Shown here: positions 534 through 23,599 of the stretch, one piece after another
Numbering within the stretch: position 1 is the first letter of the stretch
Layout: each line of letters starts with the position of its first letter
From: Tipula vernalis
Taxonomy: Eukaryota > Arthropoda > Insecta > Diptera > Tipulidae
Length of the DNA: 64,000 bases
Direction of reading: 5' to 3'
Assembly: GCA_958295665.1 (NCBI GenBank)
Contig: OY282560.1
Location: 101,595,930-101,659,929 of the forward strand
The notes under the pieces: generated by a model
Database searches by the model: none
What the model was told of the DNA's origin: nothing
What the model saw: only the letters and a program-made list of their open reading frames with translations
Program-made: the position numbers and the translations under genes

Positions 534-3392
534 TCAATTCCTTAAATACATTTCTAGACAGATTAAAGTCAAAAGCCGGCCGTACTTTATTAAAGGAAGC
601 AGAAGAATGATAAACCGGCTCACATTTACCGTAGTTTTGCCTACAAAACGGCAACTTAATTTGGAAATCTTTATCGCGCAGCACACGTAATGGAGTATAT
701 ATATATCAAGCAAACTCAAAATTTCCGAACAATCGATTTTAGACACCAATAAATCTCGAACAAACATTGCGCTAATTTCAATTCTACGAATAAATAGCGG
801 CTCCATATTTATTAATTTACATCTACCACGATACGCTGGGAGTATGAAAGCAGGTACATTCGCATCTCTAGGCAACCTTCGTAGTGCGTACATTAAAAAT
901 CGCTTCTGAACCCTCTCTATGCGATCTGAATAGTTAATATAAAACGGATTCCATATTACAACACCATATTCCAACAATGAACGAACAAAAGAGACATATA
1001 AAGTTTTAATCACGTAAGGATCATGAAAATCCTTAGCAAACCTTTTAACAAATCCAAGCATAGAATTCGCTTTAGAAATGCAACCTTCAACATGTTTATG
1101 GAACGATAAATTCGAAGTAAAGGTTATACCTAAATCTTTAAAAGTATCAACAGTTTCAATACTACAACCATCAAAGAAGTAATCGTAACTAGTGGGTAAG
1201 ACTACGCGGGTGAAACACATTGTTTTGCATTTGGAGATGTTTAGAATCAAATTATGCGATGTACACCAAGCCTTGAAGTTTGTCAGGTCAGACTGAAAGT
1301 CAAGTGCATCATTGGCGCAAGAAATAGTTTTGAAGATTTTTATATCGTCCGCATAAATGAGAATGTCGGAATGACTTAGACAGTTGACCACATCGTTTAC
1401 GAAAAGAATGAAGAGCATGGGACCCAAAGGGCTGCCTTGAGGGACTCCTGAAGAAACATCAATCACTCTTGAAGTGAAGCTGCCAATTTTCACAAATTGA
1501 GTTCTGGATTTTAGATAAGATCTAATCCAATCAACTGTCAAGTAGTTACAATTCAATGAAATAAGTTTCCGCAACAGCAAGTCATGATCGATCTTGTCAA
1601 AAGCCTTACAAAAATCAGTGTAAACGACCTGCACAATATTACCATTTAATATAGCCCTTGAAATACAATTAGTAAACAAAACTAAATTAGTAATAGTTGA
1701 CCTACCAGGGAAAAATCCATGCTGTTTGGAAGAAATGAAAGTCTTAACATGAAAGAATAATTGATCTTTAACTAGTTTCTCAAAAAGCTTTGGTAAAACT
1801 GATAGAATACAAATACCTCTATAGTTCTCGACATCGCTTCGAGATCCGGATTTGAAAATCGGCTTAATAAGTGAGCGTTTCCATGCAATAGGAAAGCAAC
1901 CCTCAGCGAGACTTTTATTAAATAGTACGGATATATGGGAAGAAATTACCTTACCGGTTAATTTTAGAAAAATGGGTGGAATACTTTGGTTAATATCAAT
2001 ATTAGACAATTCGGATAAAATAGTATCCACTTCCAGACGAAACATTGAAAACTTAGAATTACTTGCAACATTACTGAAATTACCAAGATTTGATTTCGAA
2101 CTATATACACTCTGAAAGAAATCAGCAAATAAATTACAAGTATCCTGTATGTTATCACAGGAACGGTCGTTCAAATACATCGTAGAAGGGTAACCATTAG
2201 ACTTACTTTTGTAGTTAACAAAATGCCAAAAATTATTTGGCTTCGATTTAATTAATGATTCAATTTCCAGAATATAACAGCTGTAAAGAAATCGGTTTAG
2301 ACATATATACTTCTTACGTAATATATCAAACGAGTTGTAATTAACAAAATTAGGATACAATTTATATTTCTTGTGAGCCTTGTCCTTTCTATTTTTTAGA
2401 TTTATCAACTCATTATTATACCACGGTTCCTTCTTAACGCTAAAAGCTTTCAGTCTAGGGATAAATTTCTCAATACCTAGATTAATAATTCTATAAAATT
2501 CGATTAACATGTCATCAATACTATTACAAGCATAAAAAAACGACCAATCATACGTATCCAGAAATGCATTTAAAGAATTGTAATCGCCCTTTATAAAGTT
2601 GTAAGTCCATGAATTAACATTTTCTTCGACTAACTCGCAACATTCAAACATAACTGAAATATTCAGTGGAGAGTGGAAAATACTAGACGATCCAGCCAAA
2701 TCCTCACACGTCGATACGGTCACCTCATGATCAAATGGTACAAAAGCCAGATCCAACACATTACCACTATTATTCGTAACACTGTTACATTGCTTTAACC
2801 CCAACGAAAATATTTCCGAGATGAAGTTATCCATTTCATCGCTCATGTTAATAGGAGTCAAATTGTGATCAACATACTCCCACACAATATCCGGAATGTT
2901 AAAATCTCCAAAAATAAATAGACGATCCTCCGACTGAAGAAGTGGAGCAATATTTGATTTGACAGTGTCCACTAACCTTTGATAAACTGACATACTCGAA
3001 TGGCAGGGTATATATGTAACACAGATGATCAGCGAATATGAATGGAATTGTATACGTACAGCAACAATTTCGGCAACGCAATTAGCCAACGTTATCAGAC
3101 TGGATGAATATTTGTTAGAGACTGCGACTACAATACCGCCACCCTTTTCGTAAGTGTCCCTTTGCAGATGCCTGTCCCTCCGGAAAACAGCATAAGATGA
3201 CGGAAAATACTCCTCAGTTTTAAAGTGGATTGTTAACCACGTTTCAACAATGCAAATAACATCAAAGTCTTCCTCTAAAATTGACAAATACAGAGATTTT
3301 GATTTGGCTCTGATACTATTTGAATTATGGTAGTAGATATTTAAGAATGACCGCGGCTGGGGAACTGCTTCACTGCTACGAAGAGTAAACAA
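534..3392 (-). CDS. LINE ORF2: apurinic endonuclease and reverse transcriptase
   Basis: About 950 residues. The N-terminal endonuclease shows NSNSIRAK, IVETWL, a catalytic FGDFN block and a C-terminal endonuclease remnant. The RT domain has motif A (YTDFCKAFDKIDH), motif B (SGVPQGSPLGP) and motif C (YADDIKIF). Such proteins nick target DNA and prime cDNA synthesis on it. No ATG opens the frame near 3392; the apparent first codon is TTG and the frame continues upstream, so the real start is unclear. Near 645 a one-base shift removes the conserved C-terminal stretch (NYGKCEPVY is readable in the next frame), replacing it with an unrelated tail. No RNase H domain is present. Otherwise the frame is uninterrupted, so the insertion is fairly young. 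Confidence 0.87.
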   Translation of the reverse strand: MFTLRSSEAVPQPRSFLNIYYHNSNSIRAKSKSLYLSILEEDFDVICIVETWLTIHFKTEEYFPSSYAVFRRDRHLQRDTYEKGGGIVVAVSNKYSSSLITLANCVAEIVAVRIQFHSYSLIICVTYIPCHSSMSVYQRLVDTVKSNIAPLLQSEDRLFIFGDFNIPDIVWEYVDHNLTPINMSDEMDNFISEIFSLGLKQCNSVTNNSGNVLDLAFVPFDHEVTVSTCEDLAGSSSIFHSPLNISVMFECCELVEENVNSWTYNFIKGDYNSLNAFLDTYDWSFFYACNSIDDMLIEFYRIINLGIEKFIPRLKAFSVKKEPWYNNELINLKNRKDKAHKKYKLYPNFVNYNSFDILRKKYICLNRFLYSCYILEIESLIKSKPNNFWHFVNYKSKSNGYPSTMYLNDRSCDNIQDTCNLFADFFQSVYSSKSNLGNFSNVASNSKFSMFRLEVDTILSELSNIDINQSIPPIFLKLTGKVISSHISVLFNKSLAEGCFPIAWKRSLIKPIFKSGSRSDVENYRGICILSVLPKLFEKLVKDQLFFHVKTFISSKQHGFFPGRSTITNLVLFTNCISRAILNGNIVQVVYTDFCKAFDKIDHDLLLRKLISLNCNYLTVDWIRSYLKSRTQFVKIGSFTSRVIDVSSGVPQGSPLGPMLFILFVNDVVNCLSHSDILIYADDIKIFKTISCANDALDFQSDLTNFKAWCTSHNLILNISKCKTMCFTRVVLPTSYDYFFDGCSIETVDTFKDLGITFTSNLSFHKHVEGCISKANSMLGFVKRFAKDFHDPYVIKTLYVSFVRSLLEYGVVIWNPFYINYSDRIERVQKRFLMYALRRLPRDANVPAFILPAYRGRCKLINMEPLFIRRIEISAMFVRDLLVSKIDCSEILSLLDIYILHYVCCAIKISKLSCRFVGKTTVNVSRFIILLLPLIKYGRLLTLICLEMYLRN

Positions 3393-3415
3393 TGGTGTCT
3401 TCAGTAACGGGGAAG

Positions 3416-3993
3416 TTACTTTAGATGTTGAAACACGGTCCCTATCCGGTTTTTTGCTATGCGTGGATAATTAGTAAATGGCCGGATTATTACACCAGGA
3501 GGCCAAGCATTGGAGTTATTTAGCAGGTCGAAATGGGCCTCCTTCAACCCAATTTTAAAGGAAACGAACGTGAGTGAACTGTCCAATATGCGGTCTTTGG
3601 AGAGTAACAGTTTACAATTAATTTCCTCAGGTGAGCAATTTTTCAGTTTTTCACAGATGTAGTTAACAATCAGATCAGATGAGACGGATGGATCAATACG
3701 ACTGATATATAAATATTTCTTATCAGGTATAGAAACAGTTTTAATCGAATTGACAGGTGTGCCTGTCCCTACGACAACTTGCGCTAACCTCGGCGATTCG
3801 CAATTAACGGAGTTGGAGCCAGACTCTACAACTTTTGACAAAAATGGTTTAGTGGCGTTATCGTCACCCAATTTATTTATCAAGGTATTGATCAATTTGC
3901 GGTTTTCAGCAACCTCCGTTTCAATCTTCTTTAATTCTAAATTTTCAGCGGCTTTGTCTACAATGACGTCAATTTTGGTTTCGTAGAGGTTTG
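3416..3993 (-). pseudogene. LINE ORF1, C-terminal part
   Basis: The reading frame ends at 3416 just upstream of ORF2 and runs back to the 5' truncation point of the element. It encodes about 190 residues with a charged coiled-coil-like start (ENLELKKIETEVAENRK, read from 3895-3993) and a C-terminal region with LYISRIDPSVSSDLIVNYI, which resembles the RNA-recognition-like fold of Jockey/CR1 ORF1 proteins. No zinc knuckle is seen in what remains. Its role would be nucleic-acid chaperone in the retrotransposition particle. It is cut at its N-terminus by the element truncation, not by a later deletion. Confidence 0.6.
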
Positions 3994-3998
3994 GTTTA

Positions 3999-5120
3999 GT
4001 CGCACAGGGCTTCTCACAAAAATATGGAACTGATTATGATCAAGTGTTTGCTTCTGTTGCTCGACAAACAACATTCAGAACGCTTTTATCGATTGCATCG
4101 AAAGAAAAACTCATTGTGCGACATATTGATGCCAAAAAGGGCGTTTTTAAATGGGAAATTGAATGAAACGATCTACATGAAACAGCCGCCGGGATTTGAG
4201 GAGAATAGTGAACTCATTTGTTTGTTGAAAAAAGGTCTATACGGTCTAAAACAAGCGGCGAAATCATAGAATGACGCTATTCATGAAGTAATGATCGATG
4301 CTGGTTTTCATCAAAGCAAAGCAGATCAATGCTTGTACTCACTAAAGAAAAACGGCGAATGGTCATTTCTTCTGATTTATGTCGACGATATAATTGTGGC
4401 AGCGAAATCAATAAAAACAGGTAACGAAATAAAGGAAATCATCGCATCAAAATTTGAATTGCAAGATCTGGGTGAAATTAAATTTTACCTCGGAATAGAA
4501 ATCATCAAGGACGCCAAAAACATTTATCATTTGTGTCAATCAAAATAAATTCAAAAGGTTGCTGCGGATTTCGGTCTCAGTGATGCGATAGTTTCAAACG
4601 TTACATAAATAAATCCGATGCGGATGATAGTTTTTTGCTGACAAACACAGATTATCAGAAACTCGTCGGGTGTTTGCTTTACATATCCGTGAATACACGA
4701 CCGGATATTTCGGCGAGTGTATCAATATTAGCGGCAACGAGTGCAACAACCACGTCAACAAGATTGGAATGAATTGAAACGGGTTTTGAAATATCTAAAG
4801 GGCACTGCGAATATAAAATTGGCATTAGGCAGTGATGACAATTCGGACAAAAAGGACCGAAAATCAGACACTGGTTATATTTTTATTGTTAATGGTGGCA
4901 TCGTAAGTTGGGCATATCGAAAGCAGAGTTCATCGCATTGTCCGAAGCGTGTCAAGAGGCATTTTGGTTGCGGCGGTTGCTGAACGATTTGCAACAGCCG
5001 GTTCAAACAGCGACAACAATCTACGAAGACAACCAAAGCTGTTTTTGAAGGTAATAGAAGAGGAAAGATTGTCAAATCGAACAAAAGATTACGTGTAACG
5101 AAGAGTTGTATCATGCATAT
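3999..5120 (+). pseudogene. Copia polyprotein, part 2: RT core and start of RNase H
   Basis: The piece resumes with VAQGFSQKYGTDYDQVF and gives HIDAKKAFLNGKLNETIYM (RT motif A), MKQPPGFEE, LYGLKQAAKS, then the catalytic LLIYVDDIIVAAKS with YVDD at 4378-4389. The connection domain and the start of Copia RNase H follow (LKRVLKYLKGTANIKL, SDTGYIFIVNGGIVSW, then EFIALSEACQEAFWLRRLL, and EDNQSC). Frameshifts lie near 4070-4110, 4600, 4840 and 4930, and TAG/TAA stops replace Trp and Tyr codons at about 4267 and 4546. A LOA-like LINE interrupts it at 5121; TCATGCATAT is repeated at 10452-10461, where the last piece resumes. Confidence 0.9.
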
Positions 5121-13381: not shown

Positions 13382-13393
13382 ATGTATTGTACT

Positions 13394-13558
13394 GGGTGTT
13401 GCATGCGTCTCAATAGGGTTGGGGTTGACCGTCTATAGCCATGTATCTCGTGGTCAATATTCCAACGCTGCAACTATGTAGAAACCACCAAATGTGTCTA
13501 GTATACCTCCATGTGGTAACACCCGGGCAATGATGTGAAGCATCGGCGAAATACTAGA
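13394..13558 (+). ncRNA. Delta-like self-cleaving ribozyme at Jockey-like LINE 5' end (copy 2)
   Basis: This is the cleanest of the four folds. P1: GGGTGTT (13394-13400) pairs perfectly with AACACCC (13518-13524). P2: TCTAGTAT (13497-13504) pairs perfectly with ATACTAGA (13551-13558). P3: ACC (13505-13507) with GGT (13515-13517), loop TCCATGT. After P1 comes GGGCAAT, close to the same position in the viral ribozyme. P4: GATG (13532-13535) with CATC (13541-13544). J4/2 is GGCGAA (13545-13550), with the candidate catalytic C at 13547. The predicted cleavage site is the first base of the element as fixed independently by the 12-bp target duplication. Confidence 0.88.
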
Positions 13559-13728
13559 GGCGAGTGTAGTACACTATAAATGAGCAATGAGCAGAACAAA
13601 TAAGGAAACTAGTACCCCAGGTGGTACCTGTTGCTCAGGTAAATCTACCCTCTTCGGAAGTCGGTCTCATGGATTCTGGGGGAGACCAGCCATTGATATA
13701 AAACAATTATTTTAACCAATCCCAAGAC

Positions 13729-14520
13729 ATGTTGGTGAATAAACAAGCTCAATTGAGTGAAACAGAAAAGGATAATTTACACCCCTTCCAGAGGAGTAAC
13801 AAAGTGGCGTATTCTCCGATAAGAGGTGGTAGTCCCTCCATTGGGGCCAGCAGCCACAACACTCGTTCTACAAACGAAGAAAAGCCTCACAATGAATTGT
13901 GTAAAGCTAATAATGCATTAGTTGAAGCCAACAATATAAACAAGCAACTGAATGTTACAATTGCATGGATGCAGGAGCGTATGAAGACGCTTGAAAACGA
14001 AGTTAAAGCTCTTAAGCCTAAGGAGGACATCGGTTGTACTCCTAACTAGAATACAACTCCACAAGAATATCATACGGATGAAGAAGAACTAGCTCGAGAA
14101 ACTGAGTGGATTAGAGTTAAAGGTGGGAGAAAAAAAAGGAGACGGAATAATACGCCCTGGCCCCCACTTCAATTAAAGGATGATGTTCACAATATTATCC
14201 AGAAACAACCAAAAAAAAATACCTCCACCACCAGCAAAAGTAATAGATGAAGTCAAAGACTACGATGTACTCTATGAGAAAGTAAAAACAATAACTACTA
14301 CTGATAAGTTTAATGCAAAGGTGATGAATGGAAACACCATCAAAATAAACTTAGAAGATGCTGAAACATACAGAAAAATGACAAAAATGTTAAATGAAGA
14401 AAAACGTGCTTGGTACACGTTTAAAGATAAACAAACCAGACCAATTAGGGTCATGGCTAAAAACTTACACTCTACGTGTAAACCAGACAAAATAATTTAT
14501 GACCTGAAAGCAAAAGGATT
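13729..14520 (+). pseudogene. Jockey-like ORF1, N-terminal part
   Basis: The frame opens at or near 13729 and gives a hydrophilic N-terminus with a coiled-coil-like stretch (ANNALVEANNINKQLN, MKTLENEVKAL). TAG at 14047-14049 interrupts it, and a shift in a run of A at about 14210-14220 moves the reading to the frame of PPPPAKVIDEVKDYDVLYEKV. This continues into the Jockey ORF1 pre-zinc-knuckle domain (RPIRVMAKNLHSTC, IIYDLKAKG). The I-like LINE cuts it at 14520; the domain continues at 20141 (FKATEASIKL). The protein would bind element RNA. Confidence 0.8.
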
Positions 14521-14704
14521 ATTCTTTCTCGAAACTTTATTGTGTGAGCGTCTCATTTTAGTGAAGTGTTATAAATTTTACAATTTTCTTTTAATTTTAA
14601 TTAATTTGTATTTTATTTAATTATATCTTATAGTTTATTTTGATTTGTTTATTTTTATCAGTCGGGTAAGTCTTTTCATAGTCTTTTTCTATCCACAAAA
14701 TAAT

Positions 14705-16036
14705 AAATCCACGTAACACAAGCAAGGAGGGACAAAGTACGCAGTACTTTGTACCTCCAACATTTACTTCTACTGATTTCTCAGATTCTGAAGATGAAAT
14801 AAATACTAAAAAATCAAAAATTGTTTTTAATAATGAAATAATAGTAAACGGTGAATTTGATAAAAATCCCAATATGTTAAATAAAAGGAAAATTAATAAT
14901 AATAATAATAAAACTCACGTCGCAGTTTCAAATAATACAGTAACAGCTCCAACATCATCTTCAACTTTATCTGTTGATTCATCGAATAACTCAAATATGC
15001 CGTCAGTTACTGCTGAAAAAATTAATCTATATAACCGATCAGATAATGGCCCATTCACTGTATTTATCAGTAAAGAGAATTTAAATATTGTTCCTTTAGC
15101 TAAAGCCCAAAAATAAATAATTTTAAAAATGTCAAAGAAATCTCTAGCGTTAGCAAAAATGTTGCTAAGGTTATCTTTAGTAATTTTGAAGACGCAAATA
15201 ATTGTGTTAAATCAGATATTTTTAAAAAATTTGATAATTATACGACATACATTCCTAAAAATTTCACATCTTCTATTGGTTTAATCAGGAACATTCCTAT
15301 TGGGCTTTCTAATGAAGAAATACAAGAAAATATTAGATCTAAATACCCTATTTCTAAAGTAGAAAGAATGACTAAATGGAATAGTGCCACTAAAACAGCT
15401 GAGGAAATTGAATTGGTTAAACTTACTTTTGAGTCTGGAACTATTCCATTCAATGTCATTTTATATGATAATCTCTTATTAAAGGTAGAATATTTTATAC
15501 CTAATCCATTATTTTGTAAAAAATGTCTAAATTACGGACATACAATTTCCAAATGTAAATCTAAAACTAATAGATGCCTAACGTGTGCTAATACTATAGA
15601 GGACGAACAAGAACACGTTTGTGACATGAAATTTTCTTGTAAATTTTGTGGAACGGGTCATGTTACTAATTTTTTCAGATGTAATGAACGATACAGGCAG
15701 AAACAAATTAGGGAACATATGATTTTAAATAAAACTAGTTTCAAAGAATCCAAAAGCCACCTTTATGGTAGCCAACAAAAAGTCCCTAAACAAATAGATT
15801 TTGCTAATGATATCTGTGTTGAAAATCAAGCCTGGAAAAATAACTTAATGAATTCTGATGCTAGAAAAATTCAAATCCTAAATAAATTAGTAAACGAATT
15901 AAAAAATCAATTAAATGAAAGAGATTCTATTTTTAATGATGTCAAATCATTTTTAAATAATTCCGATGACTTTAATAAAAATCCAGCTAATTTAGACTCA
16001 CTTAAAATTAAATTAAATAAATTTATTAAAACATAA
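14705..16036 (+). pseudogene. I-like LINE ORF1, zinc-knuckle nucleic-acid-binding protein
   Basis: The readable protein starts with a Ser/Asp-rich region (TFTSTDFSDSEDEINTKK) but no ATG opens that frame; a stop lies just upstream, so the start is lost or non-AUG. A frameshift near 15115 joins the first part to the rest. The C-terminal half has an RRM-like block (IPIGLSNEEIQENIRSKY) and three cysteine clusters: CKKCLNYGHTISKC (true CCHC), CLTCANTIEDEQEHVC and CKFCGTGHVTNFFRC. A Lys/Asn-rich tail follows. Clustered knuckles of this kind are usual in ORF1 of I and Jockey elements, which package element RNA. Confidence 0.82.
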
Positions 16037-16082
16037 ACTTTTCTTTTTCCAGTTTTTTATTTTTTCATTTTATTCTTCCATT

Positions 16083-19000
16083 ATGTTACCTTTAAAAATT
16101 TTACAAATTAACATTCGTAGTTTAAATAGTAATAAAGATCTATTATATCATTATATACAATCCAATCATATTGATATCGTTATTCTATCTGAAACCTGGA
16201 CAAATCCAAATAGTAATTTGACTTTTAACAATTATAATCTTGTTACTGACGATAGACCAGATGGTTTTGGCGGTGTAGGCTTTTTAATACATAAAAAAAT
16301 TTCTTGGAGAATTATTGATTTAAATTTTCATTACATCCGTTTTCAAGTTTTTAAAATTAACCTCAAATTTAAAAACAATTATTTTAATATCTTATCTTTT
16401 TATAATAATTCTGTTATTAGACCTCAGGAAATCGTTAATGAATTTGAACATCTTATAACTCAGAATCTAGATAACTGTTTAATAGCTGGAGACATAAATA
16501 TTCATAATAGTCTTTGGGATATTTCATTGACCCCTACTCACGACAGGGTGGGTGATAAGATTGCAGATATTATCACTGCTAATAATGTCTTTTTATTAAA
16601 TGACGGATCTCATACAAGGCAAGATTTTTTCAGAAATAATTCTGCAGCACTAGACATTACTTTGTGCTCAATCAATCTAATTGAAAAACTATCATGGAAA
16701 GTAGATCCCATTAATTGAGGAAGTGACCATCTCCCAATACTTATTGACTTTAAACTAAATTATTATCAAAAAAAACAAATCACAAACTGGTCAAAAGTAT
16801 TGAAAGACTTTGATCTAAATTCTATTAATGATAAATGCAATATTGAAAAACACCTAGAAAAATTAATTTCTGAAAATACTTCTATTATTACAAGTAAAAA
16901 TACTTTTAAACCTAAACCTTGGTGGAACGATCTTATACAAAGACTATGGAACATAAAAAAACACAAACAACTCATTTATAATTTAAACAAAAACCTTTTT
17001 ACCGCTATTGAACTAAAAAAATCTATACAAAAACTTAAATTAATAATTAGAAGGGAAAAGAAAAAATCTTGGAATATTTTTTTAACAAGCATCAATCACA
17101 AAACTAATAATTCTGATCTCTGGAACAACATCAATAAAATTAAAAATAAAAAACAGTCCAACTACAGAATCCTAGAAGATCCCACACTAGCTACTAATTT
17201 TCTAAATTACAATTTTCCTTTCTCCTTTGAATCCCCTCATAATCTCTCTAATAACTTCAATCCTACTATTAATCCTGCGGAATTTAATAACATTGAAATT
17301 CTTGATATTATTAAAAATTCAAATAATACTGCTCCAGGATATGATAAAGTCTCATATAAAATCATCAAACAATTAGTATCCTCTAATCCTAACCTAATCA
17401 ATACTATTACAAATTATTTCAACAACATCTGGCAAAATCAAATTTACCCTACAAAATGGAAAACGTCATACACAATCGCCATTTTGAAAAAGGGGAGGGA
17501 TGATAGAAATATTATTAACTACCGTCCTATTTGTCTGTTACCTATTTTTTCAAAAATCTTCAATAAACTCATTTTAAAACGAATTAATGATCATCTAATC
17601 TCCAATAATATTCTTAATTATTACAATTTTGGTTTTAGAAAAAATAAAAATATTACTGACTATTTTGTAGAAATGTTTAATTTCATCATCTCCCTCAAAC
17701 AACAACAAAAAAAAATTGTTTTAGTTAACATTGACATTTCCAAAGCTTTTGATAATGTAGATAAAAATATTTTATTAAACACCTTTAAAAACTTCAATTT
17801 CCCTATTAACATTACACATTGGATTTCTCAATTTCTTACAAATAGAATTATATTTATTCAAAATATCAATCAAACTTCCATTCATTACACTAATAAAGGC
17901 ATTCCTCAGGGTAGCTGTTTGAGTCCTACCCTTTTTAATATCTATACCACTTCTTTACACGACATCAATAACCCCGATACAAAAATTTTCCAATATGCCG
18001 ATGATATTTGCATTGTAATTTCTGCCGATAATCATGATAACTTACAATTAATAACAGATTCTACTATACTCTCATTAACTAATAAATTACAATCTTTAAA
18101 ACTACAAATTAACACTGATAAATCTCATTTTTTAAGACTATTCACTAATAAAAATAATTCCAAATCTCTAAATTTAAAAATTAATAATATCTACATAAAA
18201 GAAAGAGTGACTACTAAGATACTGGGTACAACTTTAACAAATAGACTTTCATTATCAATTCATTACACAAACTTAAAAGCAAATATTTCCAACTCCATTA
18301 ATTTACTTAAAACTCTCACCCATTTTAATGGAGGTGTAAATCCTGAAACAATGATCAATATTTTTAAAGCAATAGTTAAATCTAAACTTGAATACACATA
18401 TGTTTTTACAGACAATAAATATAAAAAAGATATTAATATCTGTCAATCTATTAAAAATGCTTGTCTGAGAGCTTGTCTAGGCTTCTTAAGAACTACTCCA
18501 ATTCCAGCTATTTTATCTGAATCCCTAGAAACATCTTCAGATCTAGATTTTATTAAAAAATCACTAATTTATATTTCAAAAAATCTATATAATAATTCCA
18601 AAATCGGTAACGACATTAAAAACAATAGATCTACTCTTCATAAACTTAACGACTTATATTCTAATTATACTTTTCTTTCCAAAATTAAACCTTTTCACAT
18701 AAAAAAAACGTCTCCCACTAATTTTAGCATCATAACAAATATTGAGGGAATCACAAACAAAAATTTTATAAACCATTCTGAACAATATGCATTATCTATG
18801 GCTGAAATTAATAAATATAATAATTTCGCAAAAATTTACACAGATGGCTCTATAATTAACAATAAACCAGGAATTGGAATTTTTGTTGAGGATAAAAATT
18901 GGAAATTTGCCATTCAACTAAAAAACCCTACTTATATTAAAAATATTGAACCATTGCTATTAAAATTGGAATTACTATATCTCTAATCATCAAAAACAAT

Positions 19001-19669
19001 AATATTATCATTATTACTGACTCTCAAAGTTCTTGTATTTCATTAAAAACGGCTCTATTACACTTTACAAATAGACACTCCGAAAATCAAATTATTGATA
19101 CTATCGGCCATAACCAAATTAAAAATTTTGTCATTCATTGGTTCCCGGGTCATTGTGGCTTAAAAGAAAATACTATAGCAGATAGTTTAGCAAAAAAAGC
19201 AGTTTTTTCTCCTACTCACTTTCTTGATAATGAACCAACTCTCACAGACCTATTTAACGATATCTCCAGATCTATAAATAATAAGTGGAAGGAAAACTAC
19301 ACATTAATGTGTAATTCATCCGGCCACTTTTATAAACAAATTTGCCCTTCTCCAAGATCATCTTTCCTATTTAAAGACTCTAATTTTACATCCTGCCAAA
19401 CCAGGCTAATTTACAGATTAATCTCTGGTCATACAGTTAACAAGAAATTTAAATTCCTTTTGGGACTTGAATCTACATCTAATTGTGAGATTTGTAACAC
19501 CGTTGAAGATAACGAACATATTATTAACGATTGTGTCATATATAATAATATAAGAAATAATTTCCCACTTTTATACAGAAAATCCTTATTAGATATCTTA
19601 AAGGACCAAAAAATGGAAGAATATAAAATATTGTGTGATTTTGTGGATAGAATAAATTATAAACTATGA
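16083..19669 (+). pseudogene. I-like LINE ORF2: endonuclease, reverse transcriptase, RNase H
   Basis: From ATG 16083 the endonuclease is readable (ILQINIRSLNSNKDLL, LSETWTNP, AGDINIHNSLWD, then GSDHLPI). The single stop, TGA at 16716-16718, sits where related proteins have Trp before GSDH. The RT domain has motif A (NIDISKAFDNVDK), motif B (KGIPQGSCLSPTLFNIY) and motif C (FQYADDICIV). RNase H starts with IYTDGSIINNKPGIG; a frameshift near 18970 breaks it, and TDSQSS, HWFPGHCGLKENTIAD and a C-terminal Cys/His block (CEICNTVEDNEHIINDC) follow. All catalytic residues I can check are kept. Confidence 0.9.
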
Positions 19670-20140
19670 ATTAAGACTACATTTAATTTTTATTGACTTT
19701 TTCACACAATGATTTTTCTTTGGAATCATTTCATTTTATTTTATTTTATTATAATATTAAGATTTTTGAATATTATATAATTTAATTCTAAATTTAAAAA
19801 AAAAAAAAAAGAAAAAATTATGAATTAATGAATTATAAATTTATATTTTAATTTTAAAACTTTTATTTTTATATGTATCCTTCATCTTCTCTCTAATATT
19901 CTTTATTTATTAACTTTCATTTAATCTAATTTAATTATCAAACTTTGTTTTATATAATTATGCTTTTATTTTATTATTTAATTTTTAATCTAATTTGATT
20001 TTGTACACTTTATTCAACCCTCCAGAACCTCCCCTGAGTGGTCTCTGGAAATTTTGGGCTGTTTCTCAACTCACTGGTCTTATGGATTGAAAGATCTGAC
20101 CTGAGCAAATTTAAAAACAAACAAACAAAGCAAAAGGATT

Positions 20141-20794
20141 TAAGGCAACTGAAGCATCGATTAAGCTAAAACAGAGACCTCTTAACATGTTTATGTTGAC
20201 CTTCGATACTGATGAAGATATCGAAAAAAATTATCAAATTAAGTACATCTTGGGGTGCAAAGTGGTTATTCAGCCTCTAAGAAGATCTAAGCTTATACCA
20301 CAATGTAAACAATGTCAAGCCTATATGGACATACACAAAAATATTGCAACAGGGAACCCAGGTGTGTCAAATGTTTAGGTAAACATTATACCAAAGATTG
20401 TGTAAAAGCCCAAAATGTTCAACCTAAATGCGTTCACTGTGGAGAAAACCATCCGGCTAACTACAGAGGATGCAGCGTTGCTATTGAACTGCAAAACATC
20501 AAAAATAAGAACGTGATTGCTAAAAATCCAAGTTTATTCAGGAAGCAAGCGGTTAAGATGAACCGACCCGAAGTAAATCGTAGAGTGTCGGGAACTACTC
20601 AAGGACAATTTGGTAAAATGACTTATGCTCAAGTAATGATGAGCAACGGAAATCCAGGAAAAACTGCTCAAAATGACGGTATAAGTCAAACACTTAAATT
20701 AATTTTAAGCAGACTAAATACATTTGATGAGCGATTACAGAAACTAAAGTACAGCACTAAGGGAGCCATCCCTAAACAGAAAAATGGCCAATGA
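20141..20794 (+). pseudogene. Jockey-like ORF1, C-terminal zinc-knuckle part
   Basis: The reading resumes after the nested LINE with FKATEASIKLKQRPLNMFML and continues through the pre-knuckle domain (VVIQPLRRSKLIPQCKQCQAY). A shift near 20325 separates the first knuckle half from GHTQKYCNREPRCVKCLGKHYTKDC; a further knuckle is CVHCGENHPANYRGC. This order is the classic Jockey ORF1 end. The frame stops at 20792-20794 and overlaps the ORF2 start by 11 bases, suggesting coupled translation of ORF2. Confidence 0.85.
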
Positions 20795-23367
20795 TCTTAG
20801 AATCTTATGTTGGAATGCCAATGGACTGATGCAACATCAACAAGAACTGCAAGTGGTCCTGGACACAGAAAAAATCGATGTATGTCTCATCACGGAAACA
20901 CACTTCGCTACACAATCAATCATTAAATTTAAAAATTATCAAATTTATCACACTATTCACACTGGAAACACTGCTAAAGGAGGCAGTGCTGTTATAATTA
21001 GAAATAGTATCATCACTATGAGGTGTAAAATATGAAACGGAAGAAATACAAGCAACTGCTGTTATTGTCAAATTCAAAAGTAGTTCTATTTGTATTGCTA
21101 GTATTTACTGCCCACCGAAGCACTCAATGAAAGAAAAAGATTATCTCGAGTTCCTCAGTAAATTAGGAAAACGATTTGTACTTGTATTACTGTACTGTGG
21201 ATCCAGATTAACAACGACTAAGGGTAAAGAACTCCTAAAAGCTATTAGAAGATGCAGTTGTGAAGCCCTCTCAACTGGAAAACCAACCTACTGGCCAACT
21301 GATCCAAACAAAGTACCAGATCTGATTGATTTCTTCATAATGACTTAAACTCTGATCGTTCATCAATACTTCTAACGTTAAGTGAAAAAATCATTCAGAA
21401 AGAAAGAAACCCATTCCTAGTAAATAATCACACTAATTGGGTATGCCTTAGACTATCGCTAGAACAAAAAATTAACTTAATGGTTCCATTAAAGACTGAA
21501 GAACAATTAGACAAAGAAGTTCACAAATTTGTAAACGATATACAGCAATCAGCTTGGGAAAATACTCCTGAAATTAAAACGAAAATCAAGGGAAACAACT
21601 ACCCTATGAAAATTAGGGAACTCCTTGCAGAAAAAAGAAGAGCGAGAAGAGTATGGTAACAAATAACGGTCCCCCAAGATCAAACTCAGTTGAACAATCT
21701 CACTCAACAATTAAGAAGAGAGGTCAAAGAATTGAAAGATGAATCAATCAGCAACTATTTAAGAAAATTAACTAATGATAACAGTACTGATTATTCTCTT
21801 TGGAAAGCAACCAAAAGAATCAAAAGACCAATAATGCAGATTCCCCCAATAAAAATATCAGGTGAGAAATGGGCTAGAAATAATGAAGACAAAGCTCGAG
21901 AATTTGCCGAACACCTCGAAAAAATATTCCAGCCACATGAAGACCAAACGTTGGAAGCCGAGATAATAACTGAACAAGCTGTGCAAGAAAGTAAAGAAAT
22001 CCTACCGACAACACCAAAAGAAGTCTTGCGTGAGATAAAAGCTAATATGAATACGAAAAAAGCTCCTGGGTACGATCTTATTACTGCAGAAATCTTAAAA
22101 GAAATGCCAAGGAAAGCTCTGGTGAAACTCACCAATCTTATAAATGCAGCATTTAGAATCAAATGTGTACCAAGCTTATGGAAAATTGCAGAAGTAATTA
22201 TGATCCCAAAACCTGGGAAACCACCACACATCACATCGTCTGATAGGCCAATTTCGCTATTGCCAGTCATGTCCAAACTCTTTGAGAAGCTTCTGGTAAA
22301 AATATTAAATCCGATAATCGAGAGTAAAAACTTGATCCCAAATCATCAGTTCGGTTTTCGTAACCAACACTCAACAATTGATCAAGTACACAGTATAACC
22401 AGTATAATTGAGAAAGCATTAGAGGAGAAAAAAGTCTGTTCAACAGTATTTCTAGACGTTGCACAAGCGTTTGATAGAGTGTGGCATGAAGGACTTAACC
22501 ACAAGTTAAGGAATCTTCTACCGATGCAATTTGCTAAGATACTGGAATCTTACTTCGAAGATAGGTTCTTCAGGATTAAGTTAGATGATACATTTTATGA
22601 ATTGAAAGAAATCAATGCAAGAGCTCCGCAGGGAAGTGTATTAGGGCCGGTTTTATACCTACTATACACTTATGATCTTCCTACATTAGAAAACAACACA
22701 GTGGCAACTTTTGCAGATGATACGGCGATCTTAGCTGTTGAAAAAAGCAACGAAGAATCAATACAGAAGCTACAATCAACTATAACTCAAATATATAAAT
22801 GGACAAAAAGATGGAAAATAAAACTAAATGAAGCTAAATCAGTTCACATCAACTTTACAAACAGACGATTCGAACACATTCCGATTACCATAAATGGGAA
22901 AATAATACCGCATGCGAACACAGCTAAGTATCTCGGCATGACCCTGGATACGAAACTACGAAAAGTGAAGAATTAAGACTTAACAACAGAAAAATGTATT
23001 GGCTGATGGGAAGGAACTCTTCTTTATCGACATACAACAAGCTTCTACTTTATAAGCAAATATTGAAACCGATTTGGACTTATGGTATTCAGCTTTGGGG
23101 TTGTACCAAACCGAGGACAACGTAAATATCATCCAAAGATTTCAGAATATGGTATTAAGGAACATCGTTGATGCACCTTGGTATGTCAGGAACAATGGCC
23201 TTCATAGGGACCTTAAAATGAACCTCATCTTAAACGAAATCCAGGAAAAAAACACGGAGAAATGAAGAAAAGCTCCGCCAACATGTGAACATTGAGGCAA
23301 CTCAGCTCCTAAGCATCACGAATTTAGTACGCAGACTTAAAAGAACCAAACCTTTTGAGCTGATGTG
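20784..23367 (+). pseudogene. Jockey-like ORF2: endonuclease and reverse transcriptase
   Basis: ATG at 20784 begins DLRILCWNANGLMQHQQEL and ITETHF, the endonuclease N-terminus. A shift near 21030 and a deletion within the catalytic region near 21180 (LGKRFVL joins GSRLTTTKG with the GGDFN-like block missing) disable this domain. Further shifts lie near 21345, 21658 and 22975. The RT core is open from 21690 to 22976: motif A VFLDVAQAFDRVWH, motif B APQGSVLGPVLYLLY, motif C FADDTAILA. There is no RNase H. The C-terminus (PIWTYGIQLWG, LVRRLKR) is readable to about 23367. The protein is typical of the Jockey clade. Confidence 0.88.
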
Positions 23368-23599
23368 ATTGTCAGTTTAAATAGCGTTGTGCTGATCTAA
23401 AATCCACTACAAAGATGTGGTTTACTTCAATTCACCAAACAGTATGGAACGTCAATGGGAAGAAGCCATAGATTAATTTAAGTTAGTAAATTAAATCAGA
23501 AACAAATTGCTCATTAGTCCAGAAGACTAGATTGTAATTACATAAAATAAATAAAAATGTATTGTACTTTTGCTATGAACCAGTTACTTGTTGACAGAA

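Follow-up and report, generated by a model that had tools for sequence, protein, structure and literature searches.

Does a Jockey-like long interspersed nuclear element (LINE) of Tipula vernalis set its own 5′ end with a self-cleaving ribozyme? The question arises from a stretch of 64,000 nucleotides (nt) of contig OY282560.1 (assembly GCA_958295665.1, forward-strand positions 101,595,930 to 101,659,929; “the window”), where an earlier note, made from the letters alone, had described a complete delta-like ribozyme fold at the start of such an element. The LINE concerned (defined as “family A”) spans 13394-23556 and is flanked by a 12-bp target duplication, the exact 12-mer pair ATGTATTGTACT at 13382-13393 and 23557-23568. 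We confirmed that a complete hepatitis delta virus (HDV)-like fold of 165 nt, with all helices, occupies the first bases of this element (13394-13558, forward strand). The note's interpretation, a ribozyme-led Jockey-like LINE, is supported: we put the probability at roughly 0.86 that these 165 nt are an HDV-like self-cleaving ribozyme that defines the LINE 5′ end and has been kept in family A and in a second family, B.

The fold and the 5′ ends of the copies

The region 13394-13558 folds as a nested double pseudoknot with its helices in HDV order (P1, P1.1, P2, P3, and P4), all on the forward strand. The 5′ strand of P1, GGGTGTT (13394-13400), forms 7 bp with AACACCC (13518-13524), and cleavage is predicted immediately before 13394. 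P2 consists of 8 bp between TCTAGTAT (13497-13504) and ATACTAGA (13551-13558). P3 (13505-13517), as read from the sequence, pairs ACC (13505-13507) with GGT (13515-13517) around an L3 loop of TCCATGT (13508-13514); the P3/L3 segment was aligned to the Rfam models drz-agam-1 and HDV-F-prausnitzii. In the following GGGCAA (13525-13530), G13525-G13526 pair with C13509-C13510 as P1.1. P4 (13531-13545) joins TGATG (13531-13535) to CATCG (13541-13545) across a TGAAG loop, and J4/2 is GCGAA (13546-13550), with a putative catalytic C at 13547. The note had listed P1, P2, P3, P4, P1.1, and J4/2, every one of which we located, and its estimate of about 95 bases between P1 and P2 agrees with the 96 nt counted. 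That insert (13401-13496) is a J1/2 peripheral domain with a predicted P1.2-type stem.

The HDV-like core nucleotides (TCC..G in L3, GG in P1.1, and in J4/2 a C followed by [GT]AA, a consensus taken in part from the two Rfam models, to which they align) are present in the window copy and in both families. Compared with the majority of 28 copies, the window copy differs at 6 of the 165 positions and its core is complete. One difference, C to U at 13531, where the family majority has C, turns a P4 C-G pair into U.G; another, GG to CA at 13402-13403, abolishes two basal pairs of the J1/2 stem.

We searched the genome assembly (1.27 Gb, 340 contigs) for further copies at the DNA level. Of 1292 first-look candidates, 40 were scored and all 40 matched. 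The list, ranked by match to the 165 bases, holds 39 copies in addition to the window copy, and of these 39 we examined 29. Twenty-eight of the 29 start at exactly the same base as the window copy (G1), and the remaining one (L004) is without the first two bases. Upstream of G1 the 30 copies are unrelated to one another, with a mean pairwise identity of 0.34 over 30 nt. Of 20 of these 29 copies that were examined at greater length, 15 have a target duplication of 8-15 bp that follows an A-rich tail, and the other five show none. In 13 of the 15 the duplication abuts G1, and in two there are 2-3 bases between. The window copy follows the same rule, as the note had said: P1 begins at the element's first base, the one next to the 12-bp duplication. 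Both open reading frames (ORFs) are open in two of the 20 copies (532 and 888 aa, at element positions 194-1792 and 1776-4442), and both of these copies carry the ribozyme stems. Such precise 5′ ends, found in many independent insertions, support a function for the fold.

Exact 5′ ends would also be given by a fixed transcription start. Like that of Drosophila jockey, the leader might then act mainly at the DNA level, as an internal RNA polymerase II (Pol II) promoter; the fold would be a side feature or one component of a combined promoter and ribozyme such as the trypanosomatid Pr77. A match to the promoter motif RGWYV does occur in the leaders, at +30 in A and +32 in B. However, it lies off the +28 position and is shifted by 2 between the families, a five-letter motif of such degeneracy is weak, and neither A nor B has an initiator (Inr)-like CA[GT]T within its first 60 nt. 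We rejected this weak scan as a downstream promoter element (DPE) or Inr signal. Moreover, the 13 duplications that abut G1 show no extra base of the kind that a cap might leave, and a promoter alone does not explain a complete double pseudoknot. We consider a mainly promoter role quite improbable.

The individual helices are short, which raises the question of chance pairing within an ordinary leader. We wrote a descriptor (7 bp in P1, 6 P2 pairs, P3, CC in L3, GG in P1.1, a P4 hairpin, and C[GT]A before P2) and, as the earlier note had proposed, searched with it. The site was its only match on both strands of the window, vs none in 200 dinucleotide shuffles. The descriptor was written with the site already seen, so this bounds chance folds of such a kind and is no blind test. 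It also matched 28 of 29 other copies of family A and six of seven of family B, where the fold is conserved despite near-saturated synonymous divergence (see below). On these grounds we rejected a chance fold, the probability of which is negligible.

Conservation beyond family A

A core pattern excluding the P1 strand of family A returned 169 matches, vs none for the reversed pattern, and by our count by eye one identical string stands at 75 of the 100 places listed. Eight loci were extracted from these matches, and seven belong to family B, which is also Jockey-like. Comparing copy L071 of family B with copy L032 of family A, amino acid identity is 46% for ORF1 and 68% for ORF2. Fourfold degenerate sites are 38% (ORF1, 78 sites) and 35% (ORF2, 205 sites) identical, vs 30% and 31% expected at saturation; thus, the silent sites of A and B are close to scrambled. 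Over the ribozyme the same two copies are 87% identical. When A and B are compared in 50-base windows, identity stays at 0.82-0.90 up to position 200, falls to 0.58-0.66 for 201-400, where ORF1 begins, and ranges from 0.58 to 0.75 in the windows that follow.

G1 is the first base of all seven copies of family B, of which L074 has a mismatch in P1. The family has U.G at P1 pair 7, GCTAA as J4/2, and CGATT:AATCG as P4 vs CGATG:CATCG in A. The P4 difference includes a two-sided change at pair 5, from G-C to U-A (aligned by eye with a gap moved), and the alignment of A and B holds a second two-sided change at one J1/2 pair. P1, P3, P4, and a similarly shaped J1/2 stem appeared unforced in the minimum-energy fold of family B, in which P2, as a pseudoknot, cannot appear. 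Conservation of this kind shows that selection has kept the putative ribozyme across the Jockey-like families A and B.

The 3′ ends of the two families are also partly alike (61% identity over 180 columns), and perhaps the shared end is a signal for reverse transcription. The last ~60 nt are alike in L032 and a copy of family B (L084), reading attgct.attagtc..agactagattgtaatta.

Four old copies (L090, L091, L093, and L092) make up family E, which matches family A at 74-76% identity over about the first 307 nt. Its resemblance to A in the leader and at the start of ORF1, judged by eye, suggests that it is Jockey-like. In all four copies P1 pair 6 has changed on both strands, from U-A to C-G; P1 pair 1 is G.U in three of them, and E has a longer, altered P4. 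Perhaps selection has kept the ribozyme in this older family also.

Alternatively, the conserved stretch could be a structured leader that serves translation or packaging and is HDV-like in shape without cutting. ORF1 does begin shortly past the fold, at element position 194, an internal ribosome entry site role of the R2 ribozyme is mentioned in PMC8256844, and family E keeps the leader with its stems only in part. For a mere leader, however, there is no need for P1 to start at the exact first base of the copies, and A and B alike retain the putative catalytic C together with the core nucleotides. We judge a non-cutting leader to be very improbable.

Several results weigh against the ribozyme reading. 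Ranking copies by their match to the 165 bases favors those with intact 5′ ends. Three copies failed the descriptor: L074 of family B, L004, and L062, which is a decayed copy of A (we rejected the idea that it represents an older subfamily). No Rfam model reached its gathering score at the site. Up to E = 10 just two models matched, HDV-F-prausnitzii at 21 bits (gathering score 44) and drz-agam-1 at 12 bits (gathering score 37), and the site thus falls short of the curated families RF02682 and RF01787. The folding energy of the whole region, calculated without the pseudoknot, is ordinary (z = 0.07), and J1/2 stands out only slightly for stability in the family (z = −1.32), whereas in the window copy it does not (z = −0.23); we set these z-scores aside as uninformative. 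In an alignment of 11 A and B rows, eight of them distinct, pairing is present in 95% of cells vs 35-46% when the alignment is slid. The covariation is nonetheless not significant (324 of 500 shuffles reached its score and 337 of 500 its percentage paired), because most core pairs never vary. The copies of family E form 5, 6, 5, and 7 of the seven P1 pairs, partly because they were retrieved with patterns selecting altered P1 strands. The register of P2 is lost near the core, a weak P4 hairpin (−2.0 kcal/mol) occurs among the three that were folded, and none of the four copies passed the descriptor. Finally, a leader passed from one of the families A and B to the other would look like one conserved over the long term. 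The case for a ribozyme is built on position and conservation, with the few two-sided changes in support.

We propose that the LINE is transcribed within a longer RNA begun upstream, in which the ribozyme would fold during transcription, aided by the structured J1/2 domain. Cleavage would fall just before G13394, as suggested by the fold and the exact 5′ ends of the copies, leaving an RNA that begins with a 5′-OH G1. Translation of ORF1 would initiate at a start codon whose first base lies 29 nt beyond the end of the ribozyme, and the freed RNA would be copied into new sites. If the steps occur in this order, reverse transcription would continue as far as the cut end, so that each new copy would have G1 as its first base and bring the ribozyme along.

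Clade assignment and other elements of the genome

The earlier note had called the element Jockey-like, and its architecture bears this out. ORF1 of copy L032 matched PRE_C2HC (PF07530, E = 1.5e-11), a domain that we take as a mark of the Jockey clade, partly on the comparison with Helena below; CCHC knuckles were seen in ORF1 by eye and have no Pfam match. ORF2 carries an apurinic/apyrimidinic (APE)-type endonuclease and a reverse transcriptase (RT), both above cut-off, with no RNase H among the domain matches up to E = 1, and the element has a poly(A) end and short target duplications. In a protein search with ORF2, 7988 candidates were scored and 1550 relatives kept; among the 120 listed, identity goes up to 76% and LINE names are absent. 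No relatives were confirmed in viral contigs. Six distant LINE pieces (24-34% identity) from genome contigs of symbiont and metagenome assemblies were not used.

The assignment of the outer LINE as Jockey-like is by architecture. The ribozyme could be real and the LINE a member of another clade that lacks RNase H, of the CR1/L2 type, in which case the clade association would be wrong. Against this stand the PRE_C2HC ORF1, the endonuclease and RT, the missing RNase H match, and the poly(A) tail, together with a plan close to that of Helena, which belongs to the Jockey clade and whose gag contains PRE_C2HC (PMC3087515). We regard a different clade as unlikely.

The window copy of family A is split by another LINE. 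Its 5′ part (13394-14520, forward strand, delimited by alignment to 20 copies) comprises the ribozyme, a short leader, and the start of ORF1 at 13587, which we set from element position 194 of the copies with ORF1 open. The 3′ part (20141-23556, forward strand) holds the remaining ORF1, with CCHC knuckles seen by eye, a broken ORF2 from 20784 with endonuclease and RT, and the A-rich end. Between them lies a nested LINE of a different type (14521-20126, forward strand), outside the main finding, with endonuclease and RT domains and bounded by a duplicated 14-bp word at 14507-14520 and 20127-20140. By eye, its ORF1 is CCHC-like and a YTDGS stretch suggests RNase H. The outer halves are contiguous in 19 of 20 copies, with an 11-base overlap that is part of the nested LINE's duplication; in the other copy (L050) the join is deleted.

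A PRE_C2HC search, in which 150 of 4931 candidates were scored, identified family D (L079-L081 and L085), a Jockey-like LINE with a PRE_C2HC ORF1. Identity of ORF2 to family A is about 45% for D and about 25-27% for the nested LINE. Three 5′ ends of D begin with AGTTGC, one of them with a preceding C. We detected no HDV-like fold in family D, either by eye at the three 5′ ends or with the descriptor at four loci; the descriptor is narrow, and its result for D is therefore weak. Since D shows no such fold, the ribozyme is no general mark of Jockey-like LINEs. The earlier note had held that intact relatives lacking the paired stems would refute a ribozyme. Inside family A this check favored the ribozyme, as the two copies with both ORFs open keep the stems, and by descriptor six of seven copies of B do likewise; E fits in part, and D shows no fold.

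We think the chances even that Jockey-clade LINEs of this one genome form their 5′ ends by two opposite routes, A, B, and E with a ribozyme that releases the LINE RNA from read-through transcripts and D without one, perhaps from an internal promoter as in classical jockey, and that the ribozyme leader has outlasted near-complete saturation of silent sites in the coding region. If so, a whole Jockey sublineage would depend on a ribozyme and not on a promoter of its own, with 1292 first-look candidates in family A. Having both ribozyme-bearing and ribozyme-free Jockey-like families, this genome would then offer a natural comparison for how LINEs gain or lose the ribozyme and for its effect on copy number, capping, and translation, and the similar leaders of A and B on near-saturated coding regions would be a ready pair for finding the parts that are needed.

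Other HDV-like folds occur in the genome. One starts a repeat of unassigned type (family C: L076, L082, L083, and L086-L089); in L083 it has P1 GGTGGTC:GACCACC, P2 CGTGTT:AACACG, a long P4, and J4/2 GCTAA, and this is the only one of the seven loci that passed the descriptor. At R2-like loci (L054-L061) a drz-agam-1-like match of 26-30 bits lies beside gcgggagtaactatgactctctt, which we take to be the 28S target sequence. The R2-like loci score 26-31 bits with drz-agam-1, below the cut-off of 37, and 28S bases could supply P1 there, as published for R2. None of nine R2-like loci passed the descriptor, which we rejected as too narrow for a general detector of HDV-like ribozymes. A 62-nt HDV-like unit, GGGTAGC...AATCAGG (L069:1465-1526 and L070:1527-1588), scores up to 29.9 bits with drz-agam-1, and neither of the two units passed the descriptor. 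It sits in a longer dispersed repeat, downstream of an open frame of ~390 aa and ~85 nt upstream of a tandem array of 173-base spacing, and marks no LINE 5′ end. In a scan of the genome with RF01787 (E up to 10) we found 39 places and examined 12; weak matches to this model were rejected as evidence by themselves, since 11 of 14 control genomes also matched, none over the cut-off.

Comparison with known systems

HDV-like ribozymes on LINEs are known, and the elements concerned include the Loa-type baggins. The LINEs named with HDV-like ribozymes are R2, R4/Dong, baggins, L1Tc, and RTE (PMC3774820). The association with the Jockey clade is likely new: our literature search, beyond whose reach lay Ruminski et al. 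(2011), found no ribozyme in a Jockey-clade element, and the excerpts of PMC3636483 and PMC4748587 describe none in a Jockey element. With it, the LINE groups reported to carry HDV-like ribozymes would include Jockey, a clade named after an element with an internal promoter.

The best Rfam match, HDV-F-prausnitzii (RF02682), aligned over the whole model (1-74 of 74) at 21 bits; it differs in being bacterial and in its short J1/2, and the family A match lies under its gathering score of 44. The long structured J1/2 of family A is not new. In drz-Agam-2-1, an HDV-like ribozyme of a mosquito, a large J1/2 domain is likewise predicted as a stem beside P1 of an HDV-like core, and the structured J1/2 speeds cleavage (PMC4908430). 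The two differ in P2, which is 12 bp there and 8 bp in family A, as compared by description; the drz-agam-1 of Rfam, which gave 12 bits at the site, is a different ribozyme from drz-Agam-2-1. Activity has been measured for drz-Agam-2-1, whereas that of the family A ribozyme is predicted.

Among Jockey-clade elements, Helena is similar in having two overlapping ORFs, a PRE_C2HC gag, an endonuclease and RT, and a length of 4.5-4.9 kb (PMC3087515). In contrast, transcription of jockey itself is reported to begin at an internal Pol II promoter that includes a DPE (PMC4748587). The ribozymes of R4/Dong, baggins, L1Tc, and RTE (PMC3774820) cleave at the exact LINE 5′ end, where cleavage is also predicted for family A, but these elements belong to LINE clades other than Jockey. 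The R2 ribozyme is likewise HDV-like and placed at a LINE 5′ end, and R2-like loci exist in the same genome. However, R2 has a single insertion site in 28S, and in many species its ribozyme includes 28S bases (PMC3774820), whereas the candidate ribozyme of family A lies wholly inside a dispersed Jockey-like LINE.
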